64,000 nt of DNA from Amycolatopsis regifaucium (GTDB taxonomy: Bacteria > Actinomycetota > Actinomycetes > Mycobacteriales > Pseudonocardiaceae). The stretch's first letter is position 1; each line of letters starts with the position of its first letter. The position numbers and the translations under genes are program-made. The DNA lies in contig NZ_LQCI01000006.1 in NCBI RefSeq assembly GCF_001613935.1, forward strand, positions 1-64,000, written 5' to 3'. This document shows, one piece after another, positions 858 to 64,000 of this stretch. A model generated the notes under the pieces. That model searched no databases. It saw only the letters and a list, made by a program, of their open reading frames with translations, and had not been told where the DNA came from.

Positions 858-1337
858 GTGCCCGAACTCCCGGTCGTGAACCAGCCCCCGCATCGCTGCG
901 GCGCGCTGCTCGACCACGTCACCCGCCGGATCCGATTGCGCAGCGAGTCCGTCCTGACCCCGCTCGGCCTGCGGCCCCGGCATCTCGTCGCGCTGACCGT
1001 GCTGCGCGACCTCGGCGGCTGTTCGCAGCAGGACCTCGCGAAGACACTGGAGATGGACAGCACGAACGTCGTCGGGCTGTTGAACGACCTCGAGTCCGCG
1101 AACCTGATCGAGCGCAGGCGGTCACCGGAGGACCGGCGGCGGCATATCGTCGAACTCACCGACGTCGGGATGAAGCAACTCGTCAAAGCCGAGTTCGCGC
1201 TCGCCGCGGTCGAAGACGAGGTGCTCGGCGCGCTCGACAACGGTCAGCGCGAAACGCTCTACACCCTGCTGTACCAAGCGGCGGGTCACGCCGAGCCCGC
1301 CGCCTGCACCGAAGCCGTGCACGTCGACAACTGCTAG
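858..1337 (+). CDS. MarR-family transcriptional regulator
   Basis: A 159-residue winged-helix protein of usual MarR length. The recognition helix region is about residues 55-85 (CSQQDLAKTLEMDSTNVVG), followed by the wing with the family signature RRRSPEDRRRHIVELT at about 86-101. Cysteines at 14, 55 and 154 could allow redox sensing, but no specific sensor arrangement can be proven. The start is GTG at 858, 83 bp from the divergent azoreductase start, with two palindromes in between. It probably represses azoR and itself and is released by quinones, azo compounds or oxidants. Its stop codon overlaps the stop of the convergent DUF6506 gene through a shared CTAG. Confidence 0.88.
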   Translation: MPELPVVNQPPHRCGALLDHVTRRIRLRSESVLTPLGLRPRHLVALTVLRDLGGCSQQDLAKTLEMDSTNVVGLLNDLESANLIERRRSPEDRRRHIVELTDVGMKQLVKAEFALAAVEDEVLGALDNGQRETLYTLLYQAAGHAEPAACTEAVHVDNC

Positions 1338-1636
1338 GCCCCGAGGTCGAATAGGTCGTGAAGCTGTTTCGTGGCTTCGGCGCCGTACATGACGCTCCCG
1401 ACCGGAACCGCACTTCCAATGGCTTCGATCACCCGCGCCGTCCACACAGGACCGAACGCGCCGCACAGCTCGATCAGCTGTGCCCCCTCGTCGACCAGCT
1501 GCCGGGCCGCGGTGACGACCTGCTCCACGCGGCCGACACCGATCAGCACCGTCAGGCACTTCCCACTGTCCACACGGGACACGTCCCGGGCCGGGTCGCA
1601 GCCATCGGCCAAGTACACGAAACCCCACTGTCGCAT
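1334..1636 (-). CDS. DUF6506 family protein
   Basis: A 100-residue protein that I place in DUF6506, a small family without known function. It starts MRQWGFVYLADGCDP, and its middle GAQLIELCGAFGPVW is the most family-like part. No signal peptide or membrane segment is visible, so it is probably cytoplasmic. The ATG at 1636 is preceded by a clear AAGGAG ribosome binding site, which decides this start over a longer reading that begins at 1696. It is convergent with marR and overlaps it by four bases (CTAG). The LysR gene upstream runs in the same direction but is separated by about 140 bp and a hairpin, so co-transcription is doubtful. Confidence 0.72.
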   Translation of the reverse strand: MRQWGFVYLADGCDPARDVSRVDSGKCLTVLIGVGRVEQVVTAARQLVDEGAQLIELCGAFGPVWTARVIEAIGSAVPVGSVMYGAEATKQLHDLFDLGA

Positions 1637-1712
1637 GACGATTCTCCTTCGCTCTCGGACACCATGAGGTAATCGCCAACCGAGAGCGCCGTCCACGAGG
1701 CGGATCCGAACG

Positions 1713-1735
1713 GCTGTTCGGGAGCACCGAACAGC
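1713..1735 (-). terminator. Hairpin downstream of the LysR gene
   Basis: GCTGTTCGG at 1713-1721 pairs perfectly with CCGAACAGC at 1727-1735 around a 5-nt loop. It lies 43 bp past the LysR stop on the minus strand. No U tract follows, as is common for actinobacterial terminators. Confidence 0.5.
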
Positions 1736-1777
1736 AGAGGTCGGGCGGGGTGGCGCGGAGAGCCGCTGTGGGCGCTG

Positions 1778-2599
1778 TCATACCAGCGCCGCGATCCGAT
1801 CCGAACACTCGTGCGCCGGATCCCACACCAGCGCGTGCCGGACGACAGGCGCAGTCCGCAGCGGCAGCCAGCGCAGGCCTTCGGCAGGTTCTTCCCGGGG
1901 ACGCAACGCGACGACGTCGCCGCCGTGCCGCAATTCGGCGACGAACAGCGACCGCCGAGGCGGTCCGGCGCGTACGTGGGCCGGTCGCCAGCCCGCCGCC
2001 ACGCAGTCCGCGAGCAGCCTGTCGTGGTAGCCCGGGGCCAGCTTTCGTTCGTACAGGAGGAGGTCGAGCCCAGTAAGGTCGACCCAGCTCACTTCGTCGA
2101 GCCGTGCGAGGGGATGAGCGACGGACACGAGCACACCCAACGGTCGCTCGCTCACGATGGCGGCCCGCAGACCGTCCACGTCTTCCGGCAAAGCGAGCAG
2201 ACCGGCGTCGAGCCCGCCGCGGCGGAGGAGTTCGAGCTGCCGTGCGGCGGACAGATCTTCGATCTCCGCCGCTTCGGCGTACAGGGTCGCCAGGACGGCG
2301 GGCGGCGCGCCCGGCGTCACGCCGATGCGGAGCGGTCGGCCCACGGTGTCGCGGACTGCCCGCGCGCCGAGTTCGGCCTCTTCCAGTATCCGCCGGGCGT
2401 GGGGGAGTAGCGCCAGCGCGGCGGCGGTGGGAGTCATCCCCGCCTGGGTCCGGACGAACAAGTTCGCGTCCAGCTCCCGTTCCAGCGCGATGATCTGCTG
2501 GCTGAGCGACGATGCCCGGATACCGAGGCGCTCCGCCGCCCGGGTGAGATGCCCTTCCTCCACCACGGTGCACAGATATCGAAGACGTCGTAACTCCAC
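1778..2599 (-). CDS. LysR-family transcriptional regulator
   Basis: A 273-residue LysR-type regulator. The N-terminal winged helix-turn-helix runs about residues 1-60 (LRYLCTVVEEGHLTRAAERL, then SSLSQQIIALERELDANLF). The effector-binding domain follows from about 85 to the end. It is somewhat shorter than the usual ~300 residues. I placed the start at the GTG at 2599, which puts the first helix at the N-terminus as in the family. The divergent neighbour starts 32 bp away, so both promoters share this short gap and LysR probably regulates the neighbour or itself. The effector is unknown. Confidence 0.85.
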   Translation of the reverse strand: MELRRLRYLCTVVEEGHLTRAAERLGIRASSLSQQIIALERELDANLFVRTQAGMTPTAAALALLPHARRILEEAELGARAVRDTVGRPLRIGVTPGAPPAVLATLYAEAAEIEDLSAARQLELLRRGGLDAGLLALPEDVDGLRAAIVSERPLGVLVSVAHPLARLDEVSWVDLTGLDLLLYERKLAPGYHDRLLADCVAAGWRPAHVRAGPPRRSLFVAELRHGGDVVALRPREEPAEGLRWLPLRTAPVVRHALVWDPAHECSDRIAALV

Positions 2600-2630
2600 A
2601 GCGGCACAGTAGCCGTAGGAGAATGTCAGG

Positions 2631-3224
2631 GTGAGTGACGCAGACGCCCGACGGCGCGACCCCACGCACGACTGGACCGGTTCGGTGGACGCAGCGCATT
2701 TGGCGCTGGTCCGCCGGAACCCGGGGGAGTTCGCGCCCGGCGGGGTCGCACACCTCGTCCTCGAAGTGCTCGCTTACGCGGCCGAGGAGGCCGAAAGCAC
2801 GGGTGGTGGGCGTGCTGTCGTCACTGTCCATCCCGACGGCTCGGTCTCCGTGGCGGACGACGGGAGGGGCACCAACACCCGCGCCGACGGGCACGGCGGC
2901 TTCGTGAAGAAGCCCGTCATGTCGACCAAGGATCTGCGCTTCTTCGATCTCCCCGGCGCGCAACGGCTCCCGGACGGTCATCCGCGTCGCGGCGTGTCGG
3001 TCGTGGCGGCGCTGAGTGACTGGCTGGTGCACACCAACCGGCGCCGCAACGGCTCTTGGACCCAGCGTTACGAACGTGGTGTCCCGGTCACCGATCTGAC
3101 GCCGATCGCGGACGACGGCACGACCGGCACGACGGTGCGTTTCCTGCCAGGCAAGGAGACCGGCCCGCTACACCTGCCGGACGTCGATGGATGGCCGTAC
3201 TTGAGCGTGGAGGTCGTCGGATGA
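2631..3224 (+). CDS. Stand-alone GyrB-like GHKL ATPase-domain protein
   Basis: A 197-residue protein that aligns by eye with the N-terminal ATPase domain of DNA gyrase B and nothing else of GyrB. HLVLEVLAYAAEEA (41-54) corresponds to the helix with the catalytic Glu (E45), but the Mg2+-binding Asn four residues later is Tyr49. The ATP-binding VADDGRG motif (74-80) is kept. RGVSVVAALSDWLVH (120-134) matches the GyrB GVGVSVVNALS lid, and TGTTVRFLPG (165-174) matches the next strand. There is no transducer or TOPRIM domain. It probably binds nucleotide or acts as a regulator rather than a topoisomerase. It overlaps the following lipoprotein gene by ATGA, which implies coupled translation. Confidence 0.7.
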   Translation: MSDADARRRDPTHDWTGSVDAAHLALVRRNPGEFAPGGVAHLVLEVLAYAAEEAESTGGGRAVVTVHPDGSVSVADDGRGTNTRADGHGGFVKKPVMSTKDLRFFDLPGAQRLPDGHPRRGVSVVAALSDWLVHTNRRRNGSWTQRYERGVPVTDLTPIADDGTTGTTVRFLPGKETGPLHLPDVDGWPYLSVEVVG

Positions 3225-54292: not shown

Positions 54293-55273
54293 CTACTCGC
54301 GCCGTGAACTCCGGCGCACGATCAGCTTCGCCTGCAGCGTGGTCGTCGTGGCCTTGCGCGTGCTGTCCCCGATCCGGGCGAGCAGCAATTCGGCGGCGAC
54401 CTTGCCCACCTCGTTCGCCGGCTGGGCGACCACTGTCAGCGGCGGCTGGATGAGCGTGGTCCACGGCGCGTCGTCGAAGGACACGATCCCCACGTCCTGG
54501 CCGGAGCGCAGGCCGCGTGAGGCCAGCGCCTCCAGGACGCCGATCGCCATCGCGCTGTTGCCGACCAGCAGCGCGTCCGGCGGCTCCGGCTCGTCGAGCA
54601 GGCTGAGCGCGGCGAGCCTGCCGCCCTCGGCCCGGAACTCGGCGCGCCGGGTGAGCGCGTTCTCCGCGCCGACGGCGTCGGTGTAGCCGGCCAGCCGGTC
54701 TTCGGCGGTCCGTACCCCTGGCGGCCCGCTGACGCACGCGACCCGCCGATAGCCGCCGCCGAGCAGATGCCGCGTCGCGTCGCGGGCGGCGAGCCGGGTG
54801 TCGACCAGCACCTGGTCGCCGGTGTTCGCCTGCAGCGGCCGGTCGACGGCGACCACGGGCGTGCCGCGCTGGGTCAGCCGGTCGACGTTGGTGGCCCGGC
54901 CGGTAGGGGAGAGCACCACGCCGGCGACCCGCTCCTGGAGGGCGACGTCGATGTAGCGCCGCTCCTTCTCCTCGTTGTCGTCCGCGTTGCACAACACGAC
55001 CGAGTAACCCGCCGTCTGCGCGATGTCCTCCACGCCGCGGGCGATCGCGGTGAAGAAGGGGTTCTCCACGTCGGAGATGATCAGTGCGAGCACCGCGGTC
55101 TCCTGACGGCGCAGATTCCTCGCGAGCCCGTTCGGGTGGTATCCCAATTCCGCGGCGGCGGCCTGCACCCGCGCCGCGAGCGCCGGATCCACAGTGGACT
55201 TTCCGTTGAGCGTCCTCGACACGGTCGCCGTCGAGACCCCGGCCTTCGCCGCGACGTCGTTGATGGTGGCCAC
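54293..55273 (-). CDS. LacI-family transcriptional regulator
   Basis: A 326-residue LacI/GalR repressor. The N-terminal HTH is TINDVAAKAGVSTATVSRTL, followed by the hinge YHPNGLARNLRRQET. The effector domain (~60-326) has the periplasmic-binding fold: VLALIISDVENPFF, VAGVVLSPTG, RVACVSGPPG and GIVSFDDAPWTTLIQPPL. It starts at GTG 55273 with GGGGAGG ahead. It is divergent from an FGGY kinase gene and probably controls it in response to the kinase's sugar or a derivative. Confidence 0.92.
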   Translation of the reverse strand: MATINDVAAKAGVSTATVSRTLNGKSTVDPALAARVQAAAAELGYHPNGLARNLRRQETAVLALIISDVENPFFTAIARGVEDIAQTAGYSVVLCNADDNEEKERRYIDVALQERVAGVVLSPTGRATNVDRLTQRGTPVVAVDRPLQANTGDQVLVDTRLAARDATRHLLGGGYRRVACVSGPPGVRTAEDRLAGYTDAVGAENALTRRAEFRAEGGRLAALSLLDEPEPPDALLVGNSAMAIGVLEALASRGLRSGQDVGIVSFDDAPWTTLIQPPLTVVAQPANEVGKVAAELLLARIGDSTRKATTTTLQAKLIVRRSSRRE

Positions 55274-55350
55274 CGCGACCTCCCCTTCTGCAGGTGTTCT
55301 TGACACCTTCGCACGGGAAGAATAGCTTGGCCGACAATCGTTACCATCCG

Positions 55351-55409
55351 CTGATCGCGCTACCCGCTTTGATCGCTGGTCGCTTTGATCGCCAGTCGCG
55401 TTTGATCGC
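55351..55409. promoter_or_regulatory. Direct repeats TTTGATCGC upstream of the FGGY kinase
   Basis: TTTGATCGC occurs at 55368-55376, 55384-55392 and 55401-55409, with a shorter CTGATCGC at 55351-55358, spaced about 16-17 bp. They fill the divergent lacI-kinase region just before the kinase ribosome binding site GGAGG (55423-55427). A LacI half-site-like ATCGTTACC lies at about 55338-55346. Confidence 0.5.
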
Positions 55410-55431
55410 GCTTCGGAGTTTCGGAGGTGCC

Positions 55432-56955
55432 GTGGGCGACCCGGGCCTGGTGCTCGGCATCGACATCGGCACCTCGAGTTCCAAAGGTGTCCTCGTCGAT
55501 TCCCGGGGCACGGTGGTGGCACGAGCGGCCCGGGCGCACCGAACTTCCCGCCCCCGCCCGGGCTGGTTCGAGCACGACGCCGAAACCGTGTGGTGGCAGG
55601 ATTTCCTCGTGCTGGCGAGGGAACTCTCGGCGGAGGCCGGGGATCATCCCATCATCGGGGTGTCGGTCAGCGGGATCGGCCCGGTGCTTCTCCCCGCGGA
55701 CGCGTCCGGCACACCGTTGCGTCCGGCGATCCTTTACGGCGTCGACACCCGTGCGCACGACGAAATCCGCGAATTGACCCGGGAACTCGGCGAAGAATCC
55801 ATTGTGGAACGTGGCGGGAGCGCACTCGGCTCGCAGGCCGTCGGGCCGAAATGGCGCTGGCTCGCCAAGAACGAGCCGGAGGTGTTCGACCGCGCGAAAC
55901 TCTTCCTGATGGCGAGTTCGTTCCTTGTCCTGCGCCTGACCGGTGAATACGTTCTCGACCATCATTCCGCGAGCCAATGCGACCCGATGTACGACCTGCG
56001 CGAAGCGCGGTGGGCGCCGGACCGGGTCGCCGCGATCGCCCCCGGTATCGAGCTGCCCAGGCTCGCGTGGCCGACCGAGGTGGTCGGCTCGGTCACCGCC
56101 GAGGCGGCCGCGGAAACCGGGCTGCCGCGAGGAATCCCGGTGACGGCCGGAACGGTGGACGCCTGGGCGGAGGCGACCAGTGCCGGCGTCACCTCGCCAG
56201 GGGACACGATGCTCATGTACGGCACCACGATGTTCCTCATCCAGGTGCTCTCCGATCCTCGCCCCGGGCCGGGGTTGTGGACGACCCGCGGCGTCTTCCC
56301 CGGCAGCTATTCGCTCGCGGCGGGGATGGCCACCTCCGGTGCGATCACCGACTGGCTCCGGGATCTCGTCGGCGGCGAGTTCGGGGAGCTGGCCGCGGCG
56401 GCGGACGAGGTCCCGGCCGGCAGCCGCGGGTTGCTGATGCTGCCCTATTTCGCCGGGGAACGGACGCCGATACCGGATCCGGACGCCCGCGGCGTCCTCG
56501 CCGGGCTCACCACCTCCCACGGCCGCGCCGAGCTGTACCGCGCGGCGCTGGAAGCGACGGCGTACGGGGTGCGGCACAACCTCGAAGCCATGCGGGAAGC
56601 CGGTGGCGGCACGCGCCGGTTCGTCGCCGTCGGCGGTGGGACGCGGGGCGGGGGGTGGACGCGGATCGTCAGCGACGTCGCGCGGATCGAGCAGGAGATC
56701 CCCGCGGAAACCATCGGTGCCGCGTTCGGTGACGCCGTTCTCGCGTCCATCGCGCTGGGCCGGGAGCCGGATGTCGAAGCGTGGAACCCGGTGGCCGAGA
56801 TCGTCCGCCCCGGCGCGGACGCCGACGTCTACGACGAGTTCTATCCGCACTACCGCGCACTCTATCGGTCCACAGTGGACATCGCTCATTTCCTGGCGCG
56901 GAAGAATTCACTCGCTTTCACGCCCGCGAACTCCCGGCAATCCCGGCTCAAATGA
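55432..56955 (+). CDS. FGGY-family carbohydrate kinase
   Basis: A 507-residue sugar kinase of the FGGY family (xylulokinase/gluconokinase-like). The N-terminal phosphate-binding motif is GLVLGIDIGTSSSKGVLVD. VSVSGIGPVLLPADASG is the substrate-side loop, TVDAWAEATSAGV the central catalytic Asp motif, and VGGGTRGGGWTRIVSDV the C-terminal adenosine motif. It phosphorylates a pentose, hexonate or polyol; the exact sugar cannot be told. GTG 55432 was chosen because GGAGG lies five bases upstream and the motif follows directly. The last 70 bp overlap the convergent AraC gene. Confidence 0.9.
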   Translation: MGDPGLVLGIDIGTSSSKGVLVDSRGTVVARAARAHRTSRPRPGWFEHDAETVWWQDFLVLARELSAEAGDHPIIGVSVSGIGPVLLPADASGTPLRPAILYGVDTRAHDEIRELTRELGEESIVERGGSALGSQAVGPKWRWLAKNEPEVFDRAKLFLMASSFLVLRLTGEYVLDHHSASQCDPMYDLREARWAPDRVAAIAPGIELPRLAWPTEVVGSVTAEAAAETGLPRGIPVTAGTVDAWAEATSAGVTSPGDTMLMYGTTMFLIQVLSDPRPGPGLWTTRGVFPGSYSLAAGMATSGAITDWLRDLVGGEFGELAAAADEVPAGSRGLLMLPYFAGERTPIPDPDARGVLAGLTTSHGRAELYRAALEATAYGVRHNLEAMREAGGGTRRFVAVGGGTRGGGWTRIVSDVARIEQEIPAETIGAAFGDAVLASIALGREPDVEAWNPVAEIVRPGADADVYDEFYPHYRALYRSTVDIAHFLARKNSLAFTPANSRQSRLK

Positions 56956-57578
56956 GCTTGATCGGCGTAACCCGCCGAGAACGCCAGCGAGGCGAGATCA
57001 GGCACTGAACTCGCGAGGGCGATGGCTCGCTGGAACCGGCTGACGCGCAGGTACGTCGCCGGGCCGTAGCCGACCGCGAAAGTGAACCGCCGCCGCAACT
57101 GCCTCTCCCCGGTGGGGAACCGCGCCAGCGCGGCCGAGACGCGGGGAACGCCGCTGTCCAGTCTGGCGATCAACGCCGAAACCTCCCGGTCGGCTCTTCC
57201 GGCACGGCGTTCCGCGACGACGTCGGTCAGCGAAGCGGCGCCACTGAGCACCCGATCGGCCAGCGACTCGCCTTCCTTGCCCCACAGGTCGGCCAGGGAA
57301 ACGCGCTGGTCACGCAGTTCGTCGGCGCCGAGGCCGAGAACGCCGCCCGCCCGGCCCGGGGTGAACCGCACGCCCCGCGCCCGGACACCGGGCGGTGTCT
57401 CCCAGGTCCAGGCCGTGGTGTCCGGTCCGGCGACGAAGACCTCGTCGCCGCACTCGACCAGGTCGACGCAGCCGTCGGGCACGATCCGCTTCGGCGCCTG
57501 TCCCGTGTCCTCCCACAGGCAGCGCACGACGGCGCTCAGCGCGCCGGGGGCCGTCGTCTCCCGATACACGGTTGCCAT
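56886..57578 (-). CDS. AraC-family regulator with DUF6597-type N-terminal domain
   Basis: A 230-residue regulator. The N-terminal domain (KRIVPDGCVDLVECGDEVFV, then PGVRARGVRFTPGRAGGVLG) is the DUF6597 type, found in AraC proteins that sense unknown small molecules. The C-terminal AraC HTH is RFPTGERQLRRRFTFAVGYG and RFQRAIALASS, ending in SAGYADQAHLSRDCREFAG. It overlaps the kinase gene tail-to-tail by 70 bp, and its start is 9 bp from the divergent NUDIX gene start, which it may control. Confidence 0.87.
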   Translation of the reverse strand: MATVYRETTAPGALSAVVRCLWEDTGQAPKRIVPDGCVDLVECGDEVFVAGPDTTAWTWETPPGVRARGVRFTPGRAGGVLGLGADELRDQRVSLADLWGKEGESLADRVLSGAASLTDVVAERRAGRADREVSALIARLDSGVPRVSAALARFPTGERQLRRRFTFAVGYGPATYLRVSRFQRAIALASSVPDLASLAFSAGYADQAHLSRDCREFAGVKASEFFRARK

Positions 57579-57587
57579 GATGCCCCA

Positions 57588-58013
57588 GTGCCACGACAGA
57601 ATGAGGGCGTGTCGGAAGCAGAGATCGATTCACTGGCCTGGATCCACGTCCGCGACCGTCGTCTGCTGTCGGTGCGGACCGAGGGGAAGGCCAAGTTCTA
57701 CCTGCCAGGGGGCAAACGCGAGCCGGGGGAGGGTGACGTCGCCGGGCTGTGCCGGGAGATCAGGGAGGAACTCGGTGTCGAGCTCGACCCGCTGAGCTTC
57801 CGCTTCTTCGCGGTACTGAACGAGCAGGCCGACGGCTACGCCGACGGCCGCCGGGTCCGGATGACCTGTTACACCGCCGAACATCGCGGTGAGCCTGAGC
57901 CCGGCCGGGAGATCGCGGAGGCGGCCTGGCTCACTTCGGCCGACGCCCATCTGTGCCCACCGGCGGGGCGGCGTGTCCTCGGGTTGCTCGCGGACGCGGG
58001 GCACGTGGATTAG
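57588..58013 (+). CDS. NUDIX hydrolase
   Basis: A 141-residue NUDIX protein that hydrolyses a nucleoside-diphosphate-linked compound with Mg2+. The NUDIX box is complete: GKREPGEGDVAGLCREIREE followed by LGV, with all Glu residues. The family name for related actinobacterial genes is MutT-like, but the substrate is not predictable. The start is uncertain: GTG at 57588 or GTG at 57609, the second with GAGGG very close. The promoter lies in the few bases shared with the AraC gene, or within that gene. Confidence 0.88.
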   Translation: MPRQNEGVSEAEIDSLAWIHVRDRRLLSVRTEGKAKFYLPGGKREPGEGDVAGLCREIREELGVELDPLSFRFFAVLNEQADGYADGRRVRMTCYTAEHRGEPEPGREIAEAAWLTSADAHLCPPAGRRVLGLLADAGHVD

Positions 58014-58091
58014 GTATCACTCAAAGTGAGCCATCCGGCTCAGTCTGTTTACGCCGATAGCCCGATGACCTGCCGTTCCCGATCTTCGGGA

Positions 58092-58127
58092 CACCCAAAA
58101 GGGTGAATATCGGGTTTCTTCCCGATA
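58092..58127. promoter_or_regulatory. Two small hairpins upstream of the MmpS-like gene
   Basis: CACCC/GGGTG (58092-58096, 58101-58105) and TATCGGG/CCCGATA (58108-58114, 58121-58127) follow each other 80-120 bp upstream of the MmpS-like start. They could be operator sites or leader structures. No known riboswitch was recognised. Confidence 0.4.
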
Positions 58128-58209
58128 ACGGCTAACGCGGAGTCACCTTCGAGCGAGAAGTAGTCGACGCACTCGCTGGAAGTGCGCTCGGACGAGAGAA
58201 GACCTCTCC

Positions 58210-58695
58210 ATGGGTGTTCCCACCGCGACCCCTTCGGCATCGGCGCCGGCATCGGGGACCCCGGGCAGGCTGAAGCCACTCGGGACGGTCGTGGTCGTGC
58301 TGGGGGTGATGGTCGTCGCCGTCACCCTGACCAGTTACGTACTCCCGAAGGCGTCGCGGCCGGTGCAGAGCCCGCCCGCGCCGCGGGTCGAACAGGCCGC
58401 GGCCGCCGTGCGCACCGTGACCCATTCGGTCGTCTACGAGCTTTCCGGCGCGGAGGGCGCGCAGAACGTCACCTACGTCGCGCAGGGTTCGGAACTCATG
58501 CAGAAGACCGAGGTCACGACGCCGTGGAGCGCCACCTTCGAGCGCGCGAGCCAGGAAGACCGCGACGAGTTCTACAGCGTCTCCGCGCAGGGCTCGGGCC
58601 GCGGCACGCTCAAGTGCCGGATCGTCGTCGACGGGGTGGTCGTCAGCGACCACACCGCTCCCGCCCCGGGCGCTCCGGTGACCTGCACGGCGTAG
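58210..58695 (+). CDS. MmpS-like membrane accessory protein
   Basis: A 161-residue protein with one membrane helix (TVVVVLGVMVVAVTLTSYVL, ~25-44) and an extracytoplasmic beta-sandwich of ~95 residues. The pattern VVYELSGAEGAQNVTYVAQG, then KTEVTTPWSATFE and GTLKCRIVVDGVVVSDHTA matches the MmpS family, which assists MmpL lipid or siderophore exporters in mycobacteria. No mmpL gene is in the window, so the partner is unknown. ATG 58210. Confidence 0.78.
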   Translation: MGVPTATPSASAPASGTPGRLKPLGTVVVVLGVMVVAVTLTSYVLPKASRPVQSPPAPRVEQAAAAVRTVTHSVVYELSGAEGAQNVTYVAQGSELMQKTEVTTPWSATFERASQEDRDEFYSVSAQGSGRGTLKCRIVVDGVVVSDHTAPAPGAPVTCTA

Positions 58696-58735
58696 TTCCC
58701 GAGTCCGACCGCGTTTCTGCGGCAGGATCACCGGC

Positions 58736-59503
58736 GTGACTGATGGTGCGATCGCGTTCGGCCCCGTGCTCGCCGTGGTCCTCGCCGTGCTGGCGATCTT
58801 CGGCGCGGCCGTGGTGCGGTTCGGGCAGCTGGGGCAGGGCAGGGCGGTGCTGTTCGCGGCCGCACGGGCCGTGGTGCAGCTCGCCGTCGTTTCGCTGGTG
58901 ATCGTCGGCATCCTGAAGTCCGGCTGGCTGACCGGCGGATTCGTGCTGCTGATGTTCGCCATCGCGGCGGTCACCTCCGCGCGCCGGATCGGCGTGCCGA
59001 AGGATCTCGCGTGGGTCGCGCTCGCCATCGCGTCCGGCGTGGTGCCGGTGCTGACGCTCGTACTCGCGACCGGGGTGGTCCCGTGGCGGCCCATCGCGGT
59101 CGTGCCGATCGCCGGGATCGTCATCGGCGGCGCGATGTCCGCGACCTCCCAGGCCTCGCGGCGCGCGCTGGACGAACTCTCGTCACGGCACGGCGAGTAC
59201 GAAGCCGCGCTGGCGCTGGGTTTCCTGCGGCGTCCGGCGGCGCTGGAAATCTGCCGCCCTTCGGCGGGGCAGGCGCTGATCCCCGCCCTCGACCAGACCC
59301 GCACGGTCGGCCTGGTGACCCTGCCCGGCGCCTACGTCGGTGTCCTCCTCGGTGGCGCCGGGCCGGTGCAGGCCGGGGTGACCCAGGTGCTCGTGCTCAT
59401 CGGGTTGCTGGCCGCGGAGGCCGCCGCGGTCCTGGTCGCCGTGCACCTGGTCGCGGCGGGCCGGATCAGCCGAAAGGCGACTGAAGATGCGACGTGTCGT
59501 TGA
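58736..59503 (+). CDS. FetB-like (UPF0014) ABC transporter permease
   Basis: A 255-residue membrane protein with about seven helices. The family stretch AISATSQASRRALDEL (here GAMSATSQASRRALDEL) and DQTRTVGLVTLPGAYVGVLL are typical of UPF0014/FetB, the permease of an iron-export ABC system in E. coli. The matching ATPase FetA is not encoded next to it. The start is GTG 58736. Its end overlaps the convergent phosphatase gene by 38 bp. Confidence 0.82.
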   Translation: MTDGAIAFGPVLAVVLAVLAIFGAAVVRFGQLGQGRAVLFAAARAVVQLAVVSLVIVGILKSGWLTGGFVLLMFAIAAVTSARRIGVPKDLAWVALAIASGVVPVLTLVLATGVVPWRPIAVVPIAGIVIGGAMSATSQASRRALDELSSRHGEYEAALALGFLRRPAALEICRPSAGQALIPALDQTRTVGLVTLPGAYVGVLLGGAGPVQAGVTQVLVLIGLLAAEAAAVLVAVHLVAAGRISRKATEDATCR

Positions 59504-60152
59504 ACCGTCGCACCATCCAGTTGTCGCCGGAGACCACCAGGTGGGAGATCGAGCCGTTGTCCGCTCCGAGGAACGCGAAGCGGTTCTTCGCGGCACTCGC
59601 CTGCGCGAAGACCTCGCCGATGACGCCGCCGTGGGTGAACACGGCGATCCGCCTATCCGGGTTGGCCGCCGCGAGCCTGCCGATGGCCGCCCTGATCCGG
59701 CCGCCGAACGCCTCCATCGTCTCCGCGCCGGGGATGACGTCCCAGCGCTGCTCGCGCCACAACTGCTCGACGATGGGGTGACCTTCGTGGGTGTAGCGCC
59801 GGAAAAGCCCGTTCTCCCAGTCGCCGAGGTGGATCTCCCGCAGGTCGGCTTCGAGTTCCGGCGTGAGCCCGAGTTTCGCCGCGAGTGGCGCCGCGGTCTG
59901 CGACGTCCGGCGCAGTGTCGTCACGTACAACGCGGAGATCCGCTCGTCCGCCAGACGGCGGCCCACCCGCTCGGCGTGATCCCGGCCCTCCGGCGCGAGG
60001 TCCGGATCGGCCTGCCCGTCGACGAGGTCGAACGGCGCGCTGCCCTTCGCCGGGGCTGATTCCCCGTGGCGGACAAGGAAGAGCTCGGTCGACCCCGGCG
60101 GGGGCGAGAACCGGTGCTGGCGGTATTCGACTTCCTGCTCAGGGGTGCTCAT
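59466..60152 (-). CDS. Histidine phosphatase family protein
   Basis: A 228-residue phosphoglycerate-mutase-like phosphatase. The phospho-accepting RHG is in LFLVRHGESAPA, the second His in VFTHGGVIGEV, and the third supporting Arg in LRRTSQTAAPL. ADPDLAPEGRDHAERVGRRL is the following family stretch. Sugar-phosphate or small phosphoester substrates are typical; the exact one is unknown. Confidence 0.88.
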   Translation of the reverse strand: MSTPEQEVEYRQHRFSPPPGSTELFLVRHGESAPAKGSAPFDLVDGQADPDLAPEGRDHAERVGRRLADERISALYVTTLRRTSQTAAPLAAKLGLTPELEADLREIHLGDWENGLFRRYTHEGHPIVEQLWREQRWDVIPGAETMEAFGGRIRAAIGRLAAANPDRRIAVFTHGGVIGEVFAQASAAKNRFAFLGADNGSISHLVVSGDNWMVRRFNDTSHLQSPFG

Positions 60153-60170
60153 ACCCCGGACGATACCGAG

Positions 60171-62042
60171 CTAGCCCAGCTGTTTGTCGACGAAGCACCA
60201 GCGCCAGGTCTCGCCGGGCTCGTGGCTGCGCATCACCGGGTGCAGGGTGTCGTGGAAGTGCTCGGTCGCGTGCTTGCCCGGTGACGAGTCGCAGCAGGCC
60301 ACGTTCCCGCATTTGACGCATTCGCGCAGATGCACCCAGGTCATCCCGTTCTCGACACAGACCGCGCATTCGCCGGGCGCATCGGGCTGGACTTCTGGCC
60401 AACTCTTGGTCAGATGCTTGCAGGAGCCCGCCGTCGCGGCGGGCGTGCGCAGTTCACGATCGGAGTCCGGCACGGTCTCCTCCTCCCTGTCCAGCATGGA
60501 TTCCTCGATGTCGAGGCGTTCGAGGATCCGGCGCAGGACATCATCATCGGCCATGCCGGAGTCGCGCGCCTCCAGGAACTTCGCCCGTTCGACTTCGAGC
60601 AGTTTCAGCCGCAGGCGCCGATACGCGTCGCTCGGCGTCTCGGTCAGCGTGCTCTGCCTGCCGAGCTCCTCCCAAGCCGAATCGGATCGGTGCTGAAGGC
60701 GGCTGCGCAGGCGCTCGACGATGTCGTCGGGGTCGTCAGGAGTCCGGATCTTGTCCAGCTGCTCGATCGCGGCCCGCGTCATGTTGTTGAGCACGGCGGC
60801 CTCCTGCAACGCGTCTTCGGCGGGATCCGGCGGCGGCAGTTTCAGGCGCCGCACCAGCACCGGCAGCGTCGTCCCGTGCAGCACCAGCGTGCCGGCCACG
60901 ACGACGAACGCGACCAGGACCAGCACGGCCCGCTGCGGGGTGTCGGCGGGCAGCACGAACGCCGCCGCGAGCGTGACGACCCCGCGCATCCCCGCCCAGG
61001 CGATCACCGCCGAGTACCGCCATGGCCAGGCGTGACGGCGGAACACCCGTCTCGCCAGGCCGATACCGGCCATCCAGACGATGCGGGTGACGATCGTCGC
61101 GGCGAGCGTGGCGGCGCAGATCAGCACCAGCTGGGACCAGCTCAGCCCGCTGTGGCCGACCTCGGTCATGATCCGCCGGACCTGCAGGCCGATCAGCAGG
61201 AAGACGATGTTCTCCAGCAGGAACTGGATCGTCTGCCAGTTCAGCCTGCTCGCCAGCCGGGACCGGCCCGAAAGCATGCTGGGCGCCTTGTGCCCGAGGA
61301 TCAGGCCCGCGACGACCACGGCGATCACCCCGGAGCCGTGGATCGCCTCGGCGGCGATGTAGGCGACGAACGGAACCACCAGCGAAAGCGCGGTGTCGGT
61401 GACCGGGTCTTCGAGGTGGGTGCGGATCATCGCGGCGATCGCGCCGACGGCGACCCCGATCACCAGCCCACCGCCCGCGGCGAGCACGAAATCCCCGCCG
61501 ACCTGCAGCAGGCTGACCGAACCCGCGATGGCCGCGATGGCGGTCCGCAGCGCGACCAGCGCGGCCGCGTCGTTGAAGAGGCTCTCGCCCTCCAGCAGCC
61601 GGGTCAGTTTGCGCGGCATGCCGACCTTGCGGGCGACCGCGGTGGCCGCCACCGCGTCGGGTGGGGCGACCACCGCGCCGATCGCGAGCCCGGCGGCGAG
61701 CGGCAGACCGGGGATCACCAGCCACGCCACGACGCCGACCGCGGCCGTGGTGAAGATGACGAGGCCCACCGACAGCAACAGGATGGGTCCGCGGTTGCGG
61801 CGGAAGTCGATCAGCGACGTGCGGATCGCGGTCGCGTACAGCAGCGGGGGCAGCAACCCCAGCAGGACGACCTCCGGGTCCAGTTCGTACTCCGGGACGC
61901 CGGGGACGTACGAGGCGACGACCCCGACGGCGATCAGGCACAGCGGCGCCGACCAGTCGAGTTTCCGCGCCGCGGCGGTGACCAGGAGGACGGCCACCAC
62001 CAGTGCCACGAGTTCTACCGCGATCTCCACACCGCCCATCAT
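60171..62042 (-). CDS. CPA1-type Na+/H+ antiporter with C-terminal UBP zinc finger
   Basis: A 623-residue fusion. Residues ~5-410 form the 11-12-helix CPA1 (NhaP-like) antiporter with GAVVAPPDAVAATAVARKV and LLEGESLFNDAAALVAL, the latter with the transport-site Asn-Asp pair. Residues ~420-540 are cytoplasmic and helical, containing the SDAYRRLRLKLLEVERAKFL regulatory helix. Residues ~541-623 are a UBP-type zinc finger: CKHLTKS, CAVCVENG, CVKCGNVACCDSSPG and FHDTLHPV, with the Cys/His ligands kept. UBP fingers bind the C-terminus of ubiquitin in eukaryotes; here the partner is unknown. Two ATGs (62042, 62039) are possible. Confidence 0.88.
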   Translation of the reverse strand: MMGGVEIAVELVALVVAVLLVTAAARKLDWSAPLCLIAVGVVASYVPGVPEYELDPEVVLLGLLPPLLYATAIRTSLIDFRRNRGPILLLSVGLVIFTTAAVGVVAWLVIPGLPLAAGLAIGAVVAPPDAVAATAVARKVGMPRKLTRLLEGESLFNDAAALVALRTAIAAIAGSVSLLQVGGDFVLAAGGGLVIGVAVGAIAAMIRTHLEDPVTDTALSLVVPFVAYIAAEAIHGSGVIAVVVAGLILGHKAPSMLSGRSRLASRLNWQTIQFLLENIVFLLIGLQVRRIMTEVGHSGLSWSQLVLICAATLAATIVTRIVWMAGIGLARRVFRRHAWPWRYSAVIAWAGMRGVVTLAAAFVLPADTPQRAVLVLVAFVVVAGTLVLHGTTLPVLVRRLKLPPPDPAEDALQEAAVLNNMTRAAIEQLDKIRTPDDPDDIVERLRSRLQHRSDSAWEELGRQSTLTETPSDAYRRLRLKLLEVERAKFLEARDSGMADDDVLRRILERLDIEESMLDREEETVPDSDRELRTPAATAGSCKHLTKSWPEVQPDAPGECAVCVENGMTWVHLRECVKCGNVACCDSSPGKHATEHFHDTLHPVMRSHEPGETWRWCFVDKQLG

Positions 62043-62079
62043 CACCCGAGGGCTCCGGCGCGCGCGCACCGAGGCAGGG

Positions 62080-62484
62080 CTACCGCTGTTCGATCCGGAC
62101 CAGGGTGCCCGCCGGGTCGCGGAAAGCGCAGTCACGGACGCCGTGGGGTTGGTCGATGGGTTCCTGGACGACATCGGCGCCGGTCGCCTGGATCCGGTCG
62201 AACGTCGCGTTCAGGTCCCGGGTGGCGAGCAAGATGGTCGCGTAGGTGCCCTTCGCCATCAGTTCGGCGATCGTGACGCGTTCCTCTTCGGTCAGCTCCG
62301 GATCGGCGACAGGGGACTGGAGCGCGATCGACGTCCGCGGCTGTCCCGGTGCGCCCACGAGGACCCGGCCCGGGTCTTCCTCACGTACTTCGAAGCCCAG
62401 GATGTCGCGATAGAAGGAAAGTGAAGCCTCGAGATCGTCGGCGGGGAGGAAGGACGCGTGAATCGAGAGGGTCATGCGACTCAA
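62080..62484 (-). CDS. VOC-family (glyoxalase/bleomycin-resistance-like) protein
   Basis: A 134-residue two-module VOC protein. The modules are SIHASFLPADDLEASLSFYR to the loop EDPGRVLVGAP, and MAKGTYATILLATRDLNATF to GVRDCAFRDPAGTLVRIEQR. The metal ligands would be His9 and the Glu residues of each module (E near the C-terminus is RIEQR). Function could be small-molecule binding, dioxygenase or isomerase. It overlaps the AraC gene by four bases (ATGA), so the two form an operon. Confidence 0.87.
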   Translation of the reverse strand: MSRMTLSIHASFLPADDLEASLSFYRDILGFEVREEDPGRVLVGAPGQPRTSIALQSPVADPELTEEERVTIAELMAKGTYATILLATRDLNATFDRIQATGADVVQEPIDQPHGVRDCAFRDPAGTLVRIEQR

Positions 62485-62924
62485 GGTAGGTCGGCGCGCG
62501 GAGGAGCCGCTTCTTTATTCCTGATCGGCCGCATGACCTGTTTGACGACGCAGCCGGGCATGCCGCGGCCGTCTTCCATCGCCTGTTTTCGGTAGGCGCT
62601 CGGCGACATGCCGACCAGCTCGGAGAACCGTGTGCTGAAGGTGCCCAGTGACGAGAAGCCGACGTCGAAGCAGACTTCGGTGACCGACATGTCCCCGCGT
62701 CGCAGCAGCATCATGGCCCGCTCGATCCGGCGGGTCATCAGGTAGCTGTAGGGCGATTCGCCGTACGCGGCCCGGAACTCGCGGCTCAGATGCCCGGCGG
62801 AGACGTGGACGCCCCGCGCCAGCGCCTCGACGTCGAGCGGTTGCGCGTAGTCGCGGTCGATCCGGTCGCGGACGCGTCGCAGCATGGCGAGGTCGCGCAG
62901 GCGCGGGTCGGGTTTGCCGGTCAC
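62481..62924 (-). CDS. AraC-type HTH regulator
   Basis: A 147-residue protein with only the double HTH of AraC: DAYAQPLDVEALARGVHV (first helices) and SVTEVCFDVGFSSLGTFSTR with FSELVGMSPSAYRKQ (second HTH). There is no separate sensor domain. It is co-transcribed with the VOC gene and probably regulates it. Confidence 0.9.
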   Translation of the reverse strand: MTGKPDPRLRDLAMLRRVRDRIDRDYAQPLDVEALARGVHVSAGHLSREFRAAYGESPYSYLMTRRIERAMMLLRRGDMSVTEVCFDVGFSSLGTFSTRFSELVGMSPSAYRKQAMEDGRGMPGCVVKQVMRPIRNKEAAPPRADLP

Positions 62925-62941
62925 CCGGGAAGCGTACGCCG

Positions 62942-62975
62942 AAAGGCCCCTTCGCCGGGCGGCGAAGGGGCCTTT
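62942..62975 (-). terminator. Terminator of csxA
   Basis: AAAGGCCCCTTCGCC (62942-62956) pairs perfectly with GGCGAAGGGGCCTTT (62961-62975) around GGGC, 14 bp past the csxA stop on the minus strand. A and T runs at the ends favour intrinsic termination. Confidence 0.85.
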
Positions 62976-62988
62976 GGCGATTCCCGTC

Positions 62989-63999
62989 CTAAAGGGTGAT
63001 CTTGTCGACGTTGGGGCCGCCGTTCGCCGTGGTGGCGACCGCCTTGATCTTGTTCACCCCCGCCGCCAGGGTCACCCGGACGGTTTTCGTCGTCCAGGTC
63101 GGCCACGCCCCGGTTCCGCCGAAGGCGACGCCCGACGCACTGATCGAGCCGTTGACGGAGAAGTCCAGCGGGCGGCTGGTCGTCGTCCCGTTGGCGTACC
63201 GGACGACGACGTCGTAGGTGCCCGCCGCCGGTGCGGTGACGGTCCACTCGACCGAGCTGCCCGCCACGTTGTCGTAGTTGACGAAACCAGTGCCGGTGTA
63301 GCCGGCGTGGTTGGACTCCACCGCGCCCTGGACGATCGTGGCGTCCTCGGCCTGGTAGTCGACCGGGTTGCCCGGGCCGGGGCCGGAGCCATCGGCCGGA
63401 ACGGTCTGCGTCCCGGTGTTCCAGCCGGAGACCCGCACCGAAGGCTTGGAGCCCTTGAGGTCGGCCGTGCGGTACTTCGCGGTCAGCGTGGTCGTTTCAC
63501 CCGGCCACAGGCTCACCGCGTTGTCGTTCCACTCCACCGGGAGAACCGGCTTGCCCGCGGAATCCACCATGTGCGTGTCGACGTAGAACGCCGGGAGCTT
63601 GCCGCCCGAGGTGTTCTTCAGTGTCACGGTCGTGGTGGTGGTGCCGTCGGCACCGGCGACCGAGTTCGCCGTCGCGCCGACGGACGCCTGGCCGAGGTTG
63701 TTCAGCCCGGACAGATCCGCGAACGCCGACTGCGGGGTGTAGTACCAGTCGCTGGCGCCCCAGTTGAGCGTGTCCGCCTTGGTGGAGAGCCAGTACACGT
63801 TCCGGCTGACCTCCTTGCCGGACGAGTCGGTGAGCACCAGCTTCGCCAGATAGGTCGTCGACAGCCCGCTCACCGCCGGAACGGTGACCGCGGTGGCCTT
63901 GGCGCCCAGCGCGCCGACCGACAGCCCGGTCTTGGTGTTGCTGTACTTCTCCGTGCCGTCGAGGTTGTACAGCTTCGTGGTCGCCGTCAGCCCGCTCAC
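62989..63999 (-). CDS. csxA: Exo-beta-D-glucosaminidase C-terminal part with CBM35 (5' end outside the window)
   Basis: The gene enters from the right edge; only its last ~336 codons are present. The beginning (KLYNLDGTEKYSNTKTGLSV, then NVYWLSTKADTLNWGASDWYY) is the C-terminal beta-sandwich region of a GH2-type exo-glucosaminidase. A linker (PADGSGPGPGNPV) leads to a CBM35 module: DYQAEDATIVQGAVESNHAG, TGTGFVNYDNVAGSSVEWTV and NKIKAVATTANGGPNVDKI. This matches my memory of Amycolatopsis orientalis CsxA, which releases glucosamine from the non-reducing end of chitosan; its CBM35 binds uronic acids with Ca2+. It is secreted. Confidence 0.88.
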   Translation of the reverse strand: MSGLTATTKLYNLDGTEKYSNTKTGLSVGALGAKATAVTVPAVSGLSTTYLAKLVLTDSSGKEVSRNVYWLSTKADTLNWGASDWYYTPQSAFADLSGLNNLGQASVGATANSVAGADGTTTTTVTLKNTSGGKLPAFYVDTHMVDSAGKPVLPVEWNDNAVSLWPGETTTLTAKYRTADLKGSKPSVRVSGWNTGTQTVPADGSGPGPGNPVDYQAEDATIVQGAVESNHAGYTGTGFVNYDNVAGSSVEWTVTAPAAGTYDVVVRYANGTTTSRPLDFSVNGSISASGVAFGGTGAWPTWTTKTVRVTLAAGVNKIKAVATTANGGPNVDKITL

Positions 64000-64000
64000 C

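Follow-up and report, generated by a model that had tools for sequence, protein, structure and literature searches.

A ubiquitin-binding-type zinc finger at the C-terminus of a predicted CPA1 antiporter in Amycolatopsis regifaucium, and the pairing of such fingers with antiporters

The ZnF-UBP domain has been characterised as a module that reads the free tail of ubiquitin. The window, the whole 64,000-nucleotide stretch of DNA that was analysed, contains a gene in which such a finger forms the end of a bacterial antiporter, which raises the question of what the finger reads there and what it does for ion exchange. The original prediction was that it might read a C-terminal Gly-Gly, possibly that of the ubiquitin-like protein Pup, or another peptide tail, and thereby control the antiporter. 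Bacterial UBP fingers as such are not new, since PMC2602986 lists zf-UBP among bacterial mini-proteins of several phyla, with domain fusion as the main pattern. PMC4245714 mentions zf-UBP for a eukaryotic ARH3. No description of a bacterial antiporter with a UBP finger was found in the titles and abstract openings of the open-access literature, and no function for a bacterial ZnF-UBP, such as that of structure 2IDA, was found in the open-access literature searched. The architecture of antiporter and UBP finger may already be catalogued in Pfam or InterPro.

The fused gene and its conservation

The gene is an open reading frame of 623 residues and a stop codon on the minus strand, spanning the positions originally assigned to it, and is neither a chance frame nor a misread one. 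Its parts and neighbours are as follows.

60171–62042, minus strand: coding sequence, 623 aa, CPA1 antiporter with C-terminal ZnF-UBP domain (from the open reading frame, Pfam and NCBIfam)
60849–61994, minus strand: antiporter domain, residues 17–398, FND and GMRG kept (Pfam PF00999 and motifs)
60423–60848, minus strand: linker, residues 399–540, with a conserved LDxEES segment ahead of the finger
60186–60422, minus strand: ZnF-UBP finger, residues 541–619 (PF02148, conservation in 60 non-redundant fingers, and fold)
59466–60152, minus strand: downstream neighbour, histidine phosphatase superfamily
62080–62484, minus strand: upstream neighbour, VOC/glyoxalase-type protein
62481–62924, minus strand: upstream neighbour, AraC-type regulator

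Pfam recognises Na_H_Exchanger at residues 17–398 (E 1.5e-56, above the Pfam cut-off) and zf-UBP at residues 559–619 (E 7.1e-8, 33 bits against a gathering cut-off of 22.7) and nothing else, and thus no TrkA-N (RCK) domain in the window protein. NCBIfam assigns residues 9–517 to TIGR00831 (a_cpa1) with 313.6 bits against a curated cut-off of 279.6. The motifs FND (156–158) and GMRG (351–354) are present, which we take to be the CPA1 hallmarks, namely the ND motif of the ion-binding site and the conserved arginine helix. By score and motifs the protein is classed as a CPA1-type monovalent cation/proton antiporter, with exchange activity predicted, and the presence of a UBP finger at its C-terminus is confirmed, with both zf-UBP and TIGR00831 above their cut-offs. 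A simple hydropathy scan places 12 strong membrane segments within the first 390 residues, and past residue 425 no window exceeds 0.5. With no strong hydrophobic stretch in that region, the finger lies on a soluble tail; its placement on the cytoplasmic side, as originally proposed, is presumed from membership of the CPA1 family. The antiporter part, FND and GMRG included, and the linker are like those of other TIGR00831 antiporters, and LDxEES-type linker ends are similar in antiporters that have no finger. What the window protein adds to this family is the ZnF-UBP domain.

The original prediction had proposed a survey of the fusion across genomes, and this shows it to be conserved. Of 60 genomes of the genus, 54 encode the fused protein at full length, with a match that starts at query residue 5 or earlier and ends at 623; among the others it is in two pieces in G347 and a contig-edge fragment in G345, and the gene is absent from G306, G308, G348 and G350. 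The two pieces in G347 (G347:C1:5303759-5305626) overlap in different frames, representing a pseudogene or a sequencing error. In the family, the match begins no later than residue 7 and reaches residue 620 or beyond in 31 of 120 genomes. A scan of named genomes, in which the best 80 of at least 582 candidate stretches encoding a relative were kept, gave 20 single-frame proteins of antiporter and finger, one frame-broken (L102) and 59 with no finger in the fetched stretch. The fusions among these best 80 of at least 582 stretches belong to seven actinobacterial genera: Amycolatopsis, Kibdelosporangium, Antrihabitans, Nocardia, Nocardioides, Micropruina and Tsukamurella. The finger is under purifying selection: computed on 20 of the 30 loci of the genus, its pN/pS is 0.19 in comparison with the near clade and 0.31 with the far one, and the corresponding values for the antiporter part are 0.13 and 0.42.

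The surroundings of the gene vary with distance. The histidine phosphatase gene adjoins it in 29 of 30 genus loci and was found at none of the loci of other genera examined. Within the genus the VOC and AraC genes are confined to the closest clade, at 16 of 30 loci, and among the 22 named loci they occur in the fetched flanks of two (L083, L103). Electrophile-gated Kef systems have glyoxalase-type genes alongside, and a detoxification link of the VOC and AraC genes with the antiporter is possible in the closest clade; a general glyoxalase link of this Kef-like kind was rejected on these counts. No Rfam match lies near the gene, in 55000–64000.

Fingers as separate genes beside antiporters

The finger also exists apart from the antiporter. 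It is present in 68 of the 296 genomes of a phylum sample, and a CPA1 antiporter was matched at E 1e-20 in 30 of 67 finger genomes (the window's own genome excluded), four of which have the fusion (G008, G085, G139, G197). Of the 42 non-fused finger loci in these 30 genomes, 11 have a CPA1 gene at a distance of about 2 kb or less, against 0.08 expected from genome sizes and antiporter counts, an expectation that ignores the kinship of the genomes. The 11 comprise seven divergent pairs in one genus, one finger downstream of and overlapping its antiporter (G204), and three fingers that lie upstream in the same orientation (G206, G184 and G195, at a distance of about 1 kb in G195), which amounts to three gene arrangements in three families. 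In G204 (locus L173) the ORF coordinates show the antiporter stop and the finger start overlapping as TGATG, and this coupled gene pair is probably a step before fusion. On L173 the antiporter ORF runs from 1249 to 3015 on the minus strand with the finger start at 1246. At L180:439-4390 a finger gene precedes two CPA1 antiporter genes, all three in one orientation.

In the family, 29 of the 37 members of a second antiporter group, 44–51% identical, are accompanied by a divergently oriented finger gene at a distance of about 330 bp or less. The group consists of all 37 rows of one score band in the 120 family genomes and was chosen by score and not by tree; coordinates alone place a divergent finger at 27 of the 37 among the matches listed, and the fetched flanks of the other ten add two. 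For seven of the 37, the fetched flanks of about 1.5 kb to each side show no finger, and one (G462) starts too close to a contig end for the presence of a finger to be judged.

A quick tree of 82 antiporter domains, with SH-aLRT supports and no bootstrap, unites the fused antiporters (SH-aLRT 99) and makes the TGATG pair L173 the sister of their clade (SH-aLRT 96). Two finger-less long-branch rows (L100, L201) lie inside the fused clade, which could reflect loss of the finger or an artefact. In another family, the seven divergent pairs from a single genus form a separate clade (SH-aLRT 100) together with one row that has no finger (L193); pairs from a third family stand apart again, mixed with finger-less rows. 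The antiporter tree would thus fit one fusion event and several pairings of the finger with CPA1 antiporters. In the tree of the fingers themselves (67 rows, 81 columns), resolution is poor and the CPA1-fused fingers do not form one group.

A second antiporter family is paired with the finger as well. According to Pfam, CPA2 antiporters with TrkA-N also end in a finger at L064:1974-4196 (minus strand) and L078:1968-4007 (minus strand), and G400 and G457 have near-full-length matches to the L078 protein among the matches listed, so that at least four CPA2 proteins carry it. The window protein and the KefB/KefC-type CPA2 proteins are alike in being antiporters with a soluble regulatory domain, whereas the window protein belongs to CPA1 and has no TrkA-N. 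The finger is also fused to LtrA (L076:1588-3243, plus strand) and to a cNMP/HATPase protein (L072:1986-3743, minus strand).

Taken with the fusion, this distribution leads us to regard the finger, with reasonable though far from complete confidence, as a regulatory subunit of the CPA1 antiporter that has been turned into a built-in tail domain. In relatives, the finger is a separate small protein whose gene adjoins that of the antiporter, and a coupled TGATG pair probably preceded the fusion. The finger may control exchange by docking, through its pocket, either to the cytoplasmic part of the antiporter itself or to a partner protein. Control of ion exchange by the finger, as first proposed, is strengthened by the separate-gene fingers beside antiporters, but the Gly-Gly or Pup signal that accompanied the proposal is not supported. 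Against a role as regulatory subunit, divergent gene pairs are also typical of transcriptional regulators, and for seven of the 37 antiporters in the second group no finger was found in the fetched flanks. The finger is moreover not antiporter-specific, because it is present in the 37 of 67 finger-bearing genomes that have no CPA1 match at E 1e-20 and is also fused to LtrA or a histidine kinase. Its repeated fusion or pairing with antiporters gives bacterial fingers a concrete candidate partner. If it is a regulatory subunit, the Actinomycetota CPA1 antiporters would gain a regulatory input, and the locus would provide a case of a gene pair becoming a single protein.

Zinc ligands, pocket and candidate inputs

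Two features of the finger's residues are located as follows.

60291–60296, minus strand: Cys-Cys pair C583-C584 (conservation and alignment)
60288–60290, minus strand: D585, at the position of HDAC6 R1155 and of USP20 E55/USP33 E86 (alignment)

The metal ligands had been said to be kept, and the full putative set is indeed present from C541 through D619: C541, H543, C559, C562, C575, C578, C583/C584, H591, H595, H601, C616 and D619. They are arranged as a C-x-H (541, 543), two C-x2-C pairs (559/562 and 575/578) and the C583-C584 pair, and their assignment to zinc sites is taken to follow HDAC6. One cysteine of the pair is a putative zinc ligand and the other, C584 by alignment, is extra, at a position where HDAC6 has glycine. 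The pair is found in all 60 non-redundant fingers, which were drawn from 102 found, all Actinomycetota loci, and in 34 of 35 further ones, with serine for C584 in L229. The further set consists of the remaining 36 phylum-sample matches that were fetched, of which 35 include the pocket segment and one (G042:C20) does not. Positions other than ligands are also conserved in the 60 fingers, with L572 and R573 in all of them, S587 and W613 in 57 each and W615 in 53.

The ligands vary between rows, as read by eye from the alignment rows for the C-terminal pairs. The usual pairing is C-x-H at the first site with C-x-x-D at the C-terminal end, but in the three rows with C-x-D at the first site (L087, L072, L076) the C-terminal end is C-x-x-H in all three, which in L076 and L072 is likely to be a swap of zinc ligands; L101 and L102 are exceptions, having C-x-H with C-x-x-H. 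A subgroup of fingers (L014, L016, L019, L020, L023, L026–L028, L065, L066, L070, L071, L074 and L077) has C616 replaced by D, N or S, and because all 14 of these rows also have no first C-x-H, one zinc site has probably been lost. Two of them, L019 and L020, adjoin cNMP/HATPase kinase genes.

A model of the finger built from 20 sequences reached pLDDT 71 and pTM 0.60; a model of the whole tail, linker and finger, from 19 sequences was too poor (pLDDT 48), and the finger-only model was used instead. Its best structural match is the NMR structure 2IDA, at Z 10.0 and a Foldseek E of 3.3e-6. It also matches chains of the human HDAC6 ZnF-UBP, with Foldseek E values of 7e-3 and weaker and a Z of 8.4 for the best of them. 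2IDA is RPA1320 of Rhodopseudomonas palustris, about 50% identical over the finger and with the same CCD pocket segment, but it is a stand-alone chain of 102 residues with no antiporter, deposited as a hypothetical protein. The profile of the bacterial fingers matches chains of HDAC6, USP49, USP20, USP33, USP16 and USP5. With the readers of the free ubiquitin C-terminus, HDAC6, USP5 and USP16, it shares the fold, a similar pattern of zinc ligands and the pocket tryptophan, whereas the bacterial finger has extra residues ahead of the second C-x2-C pair.

The pocket residues were located by a residue-level profile alignment with 2IDA, USP49, zebrafish HDAC6, USP20 and USP33, on which we placed the residue numbers of the human proteins, HDAC6, USP5 and USP16 included; the finger models contain no zinc. 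In this alignment HDAC6 R1155 falls on D585, the preceding glycine on C584, W1182 on W615 and Y1184 on F617. None of the 60 non-redundant fingers has arginine at the R1155 position (54 have D, three N and three E), and the 35 further fingers have D in 32 and E in three; D is also found in 2IDA and in ten fingers from viral contigs and from plasmids of Pseudomonadota, Bacteroidota and Actinomycetota. At the Y1184 position tyrosine occurs in 39 of the 60, phenylalanine in 20 and valine in one. In PMC10424181, the double mutation R1155A/Y1184A removes key hydrogen bonds from HDAC6 to the terminal glycine and lowers ISG15 binding, and the equivalent USP16 double mutant serves as a binding-deficient form; PMC5086625 has HDAC6 requiring the terminal diglycine. 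The window protein differs from HDAC6 at both of these mutated positions, by Asp for Arg and by Phe for Tyr. The original prediction took absence of the pocket residues in a structural model as speaking against it, and here the absence is seen at the level of sequence rather than in a ligand-bound structure. The finger appears to have lost residues used for reading a ubiquitin tail, and such a change in the pocket predicts what bacterial fingers do not bind.

As regards what they might bind, the pocket partly resembles those of USP20 and USP33, which share the acidic residue replacing the pocket arginine (E55 and E86, equivalent to D585). The USP20 and USP33 fingers bind the motif [KR]xxL[NED] and not, to a measurable extent, the tail of ubiquitin, according to PMC13376213. 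By analogy the finger could bind an internal linear motif and so dock a partner protein or the tail of the antiporter itself; this is a serious possibility, although it falls somewhat short of being probable. The analogy is partial, because the second acidic residue (USP20 D59, USP33 D90) corresponds to K590 here and to R, K or Q in 51 of the 60 fingers. In addition, [KR]xxL[NED] is not conserved in the linkers: with the motif in 10 of 28 fused rows, a self-ligand of this type was rejected as a conserved feature. Because the pocket is acidic where ubiquitin readers have arginine, an internal or basic segment would nevertheless be a likelier ligand than a free Gly-Gly C-terminus.

A further candidate is that the finger acts as a redox or zinc switch, in which oxidation of the zinc-bound cysteines around C583-C584 would free zinc and alter antiporter activity in a Kef-like manner. 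KefB and KefC are gated by glutathione, and bacteria of the present type use other thiols and are not known to have glutathione. The extra cysteine beside a putative ligand, nearly invariant as described, favours such a switch, as does the fusion of Kef-like CPA2 proteins to the finger. The neighbours of stand-alone fingers point the same way. In Rhodococcus a stand-alone finger follows clpB and lies between trxA and a thioredoxin reductase with a cNMP domain, in Rhizobium one follows a two-component set of an ATP-binding protein and two response regulators and precedes an FAD oxidoreductase, and in Burkholderia one lies between FAD-dependent enzymes; neighbours in Hymenobacter and Streptomyces are mixed, and in two plasmid records the neighbourhood has no annotation. 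Of 131 ORFs around 42 finger loci, with up to four ORFs taken per locus, nine are cNMP, seven HATPase, three thioredoxin, three Pyr_redox_2 and two Na_H_Exchanger, as raw counts with no background.

These neighbours suggest a thiol or redox input, which would fit the extra cysteine. On the other side, the neighbour counts are small and all come from stand-alone fingers, no redox gene was recognised beside the fused gene in the window, many zinc-cysteine sites are structural, and the finger of L229 has serine for C584. The switch is rather doubtful, if still a candidate. Within the preferred reading of the finger as a regulatory subunit, a thiol, redox or zinc status as its input is the weaker part, suggested by the zinc-cysteine sites on which the fold depends, by the extra cysteine, and by genes for cNMP-domain kinases, thioredoxin reductase and thioredoxin that adjoin some stand-alone fingers. 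Equally tentative is the wider proposal that a ZnF-UBP with an acidic pocket and an extra cysteine is an exchangeable, thiol- or zinc-responsive antiporter subunit, either fused or encoded next door. If this were true, ion exchange would be under Kef-like control in organisms without glutathione, and the fold would have a part in signalling that does not depend on ubiquitin.

It is improbable that the finger is a structural or stability tail that reads no signal. The related antiporters that have no finger (the 59 among the best 80 of at least 582 loci) would agree with such a role, but positions outside the ligand set show conservation close to that of the ligands themselves, and stand-alone fingers beside antiporters do not fit a mere tail.

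Gly-Gly tails and Pup

The weakest explanation is the one first offered, in which a free C-terminal Gly-Gly, of Pup or of a sulfur carrier of the ThiS/MoaD type, is read by the finger and thereby gates the antiporter; the HDAC6/USP5 fold, the kept tryptophan W615 and an association with Pup speak for it, but with D, N or E for the pocket arginine in 60 of 60 fingers (D or E in 35 of 35 further ones), F617 for the tyrosine, the effect of the HDAC6 double mutation and a Pup that ends in GGE, it is very unlikely. The association itself is above chance in the phylum sample, where Pup was matched in 127 of 296 genomes (one below cut-off): 48 genomes have finger and Pup, 20 the finger with no Pup found and 79 Pup with no finger. 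Pup is thus present in 48 of 68 finger genomes and in 79 of 228 finger-less ones (odds ratio 4.5, Fisher p 3e-7, with kinship and incompleteness ignored). Amongst the 12 fusion genomes searched (nine intact CPA1, one frame-broken and two CPA2), ten have Pup, and it was not found in G197 (96% complete) and G356 (a MAG).

From the pocket, Pup does not appear to be a likely ligand, nor does it seem necessary for the finger, because no Pup was found in 20 of the 68 finger genomes or in two finger-bearing controls. In the set of 14 control genomes these two were Deinobacterium chartae and Methanosarcina acetivorans, and Pup was found in Corynebacterium glutamicum only. Fingers also occur on plasmids of Rhizobium, Burkholderia and Hymenobacter, genera not known to have Pup. 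The window genome has one Pup match, lying between ORFs that resemble, as judged by eye, a proteasome subunit and Dop. As anticipated, this Pup has a GGE end, the ORF closing with KGGE, and with glutamate as its last residue it fails as a tail ending in glycine.
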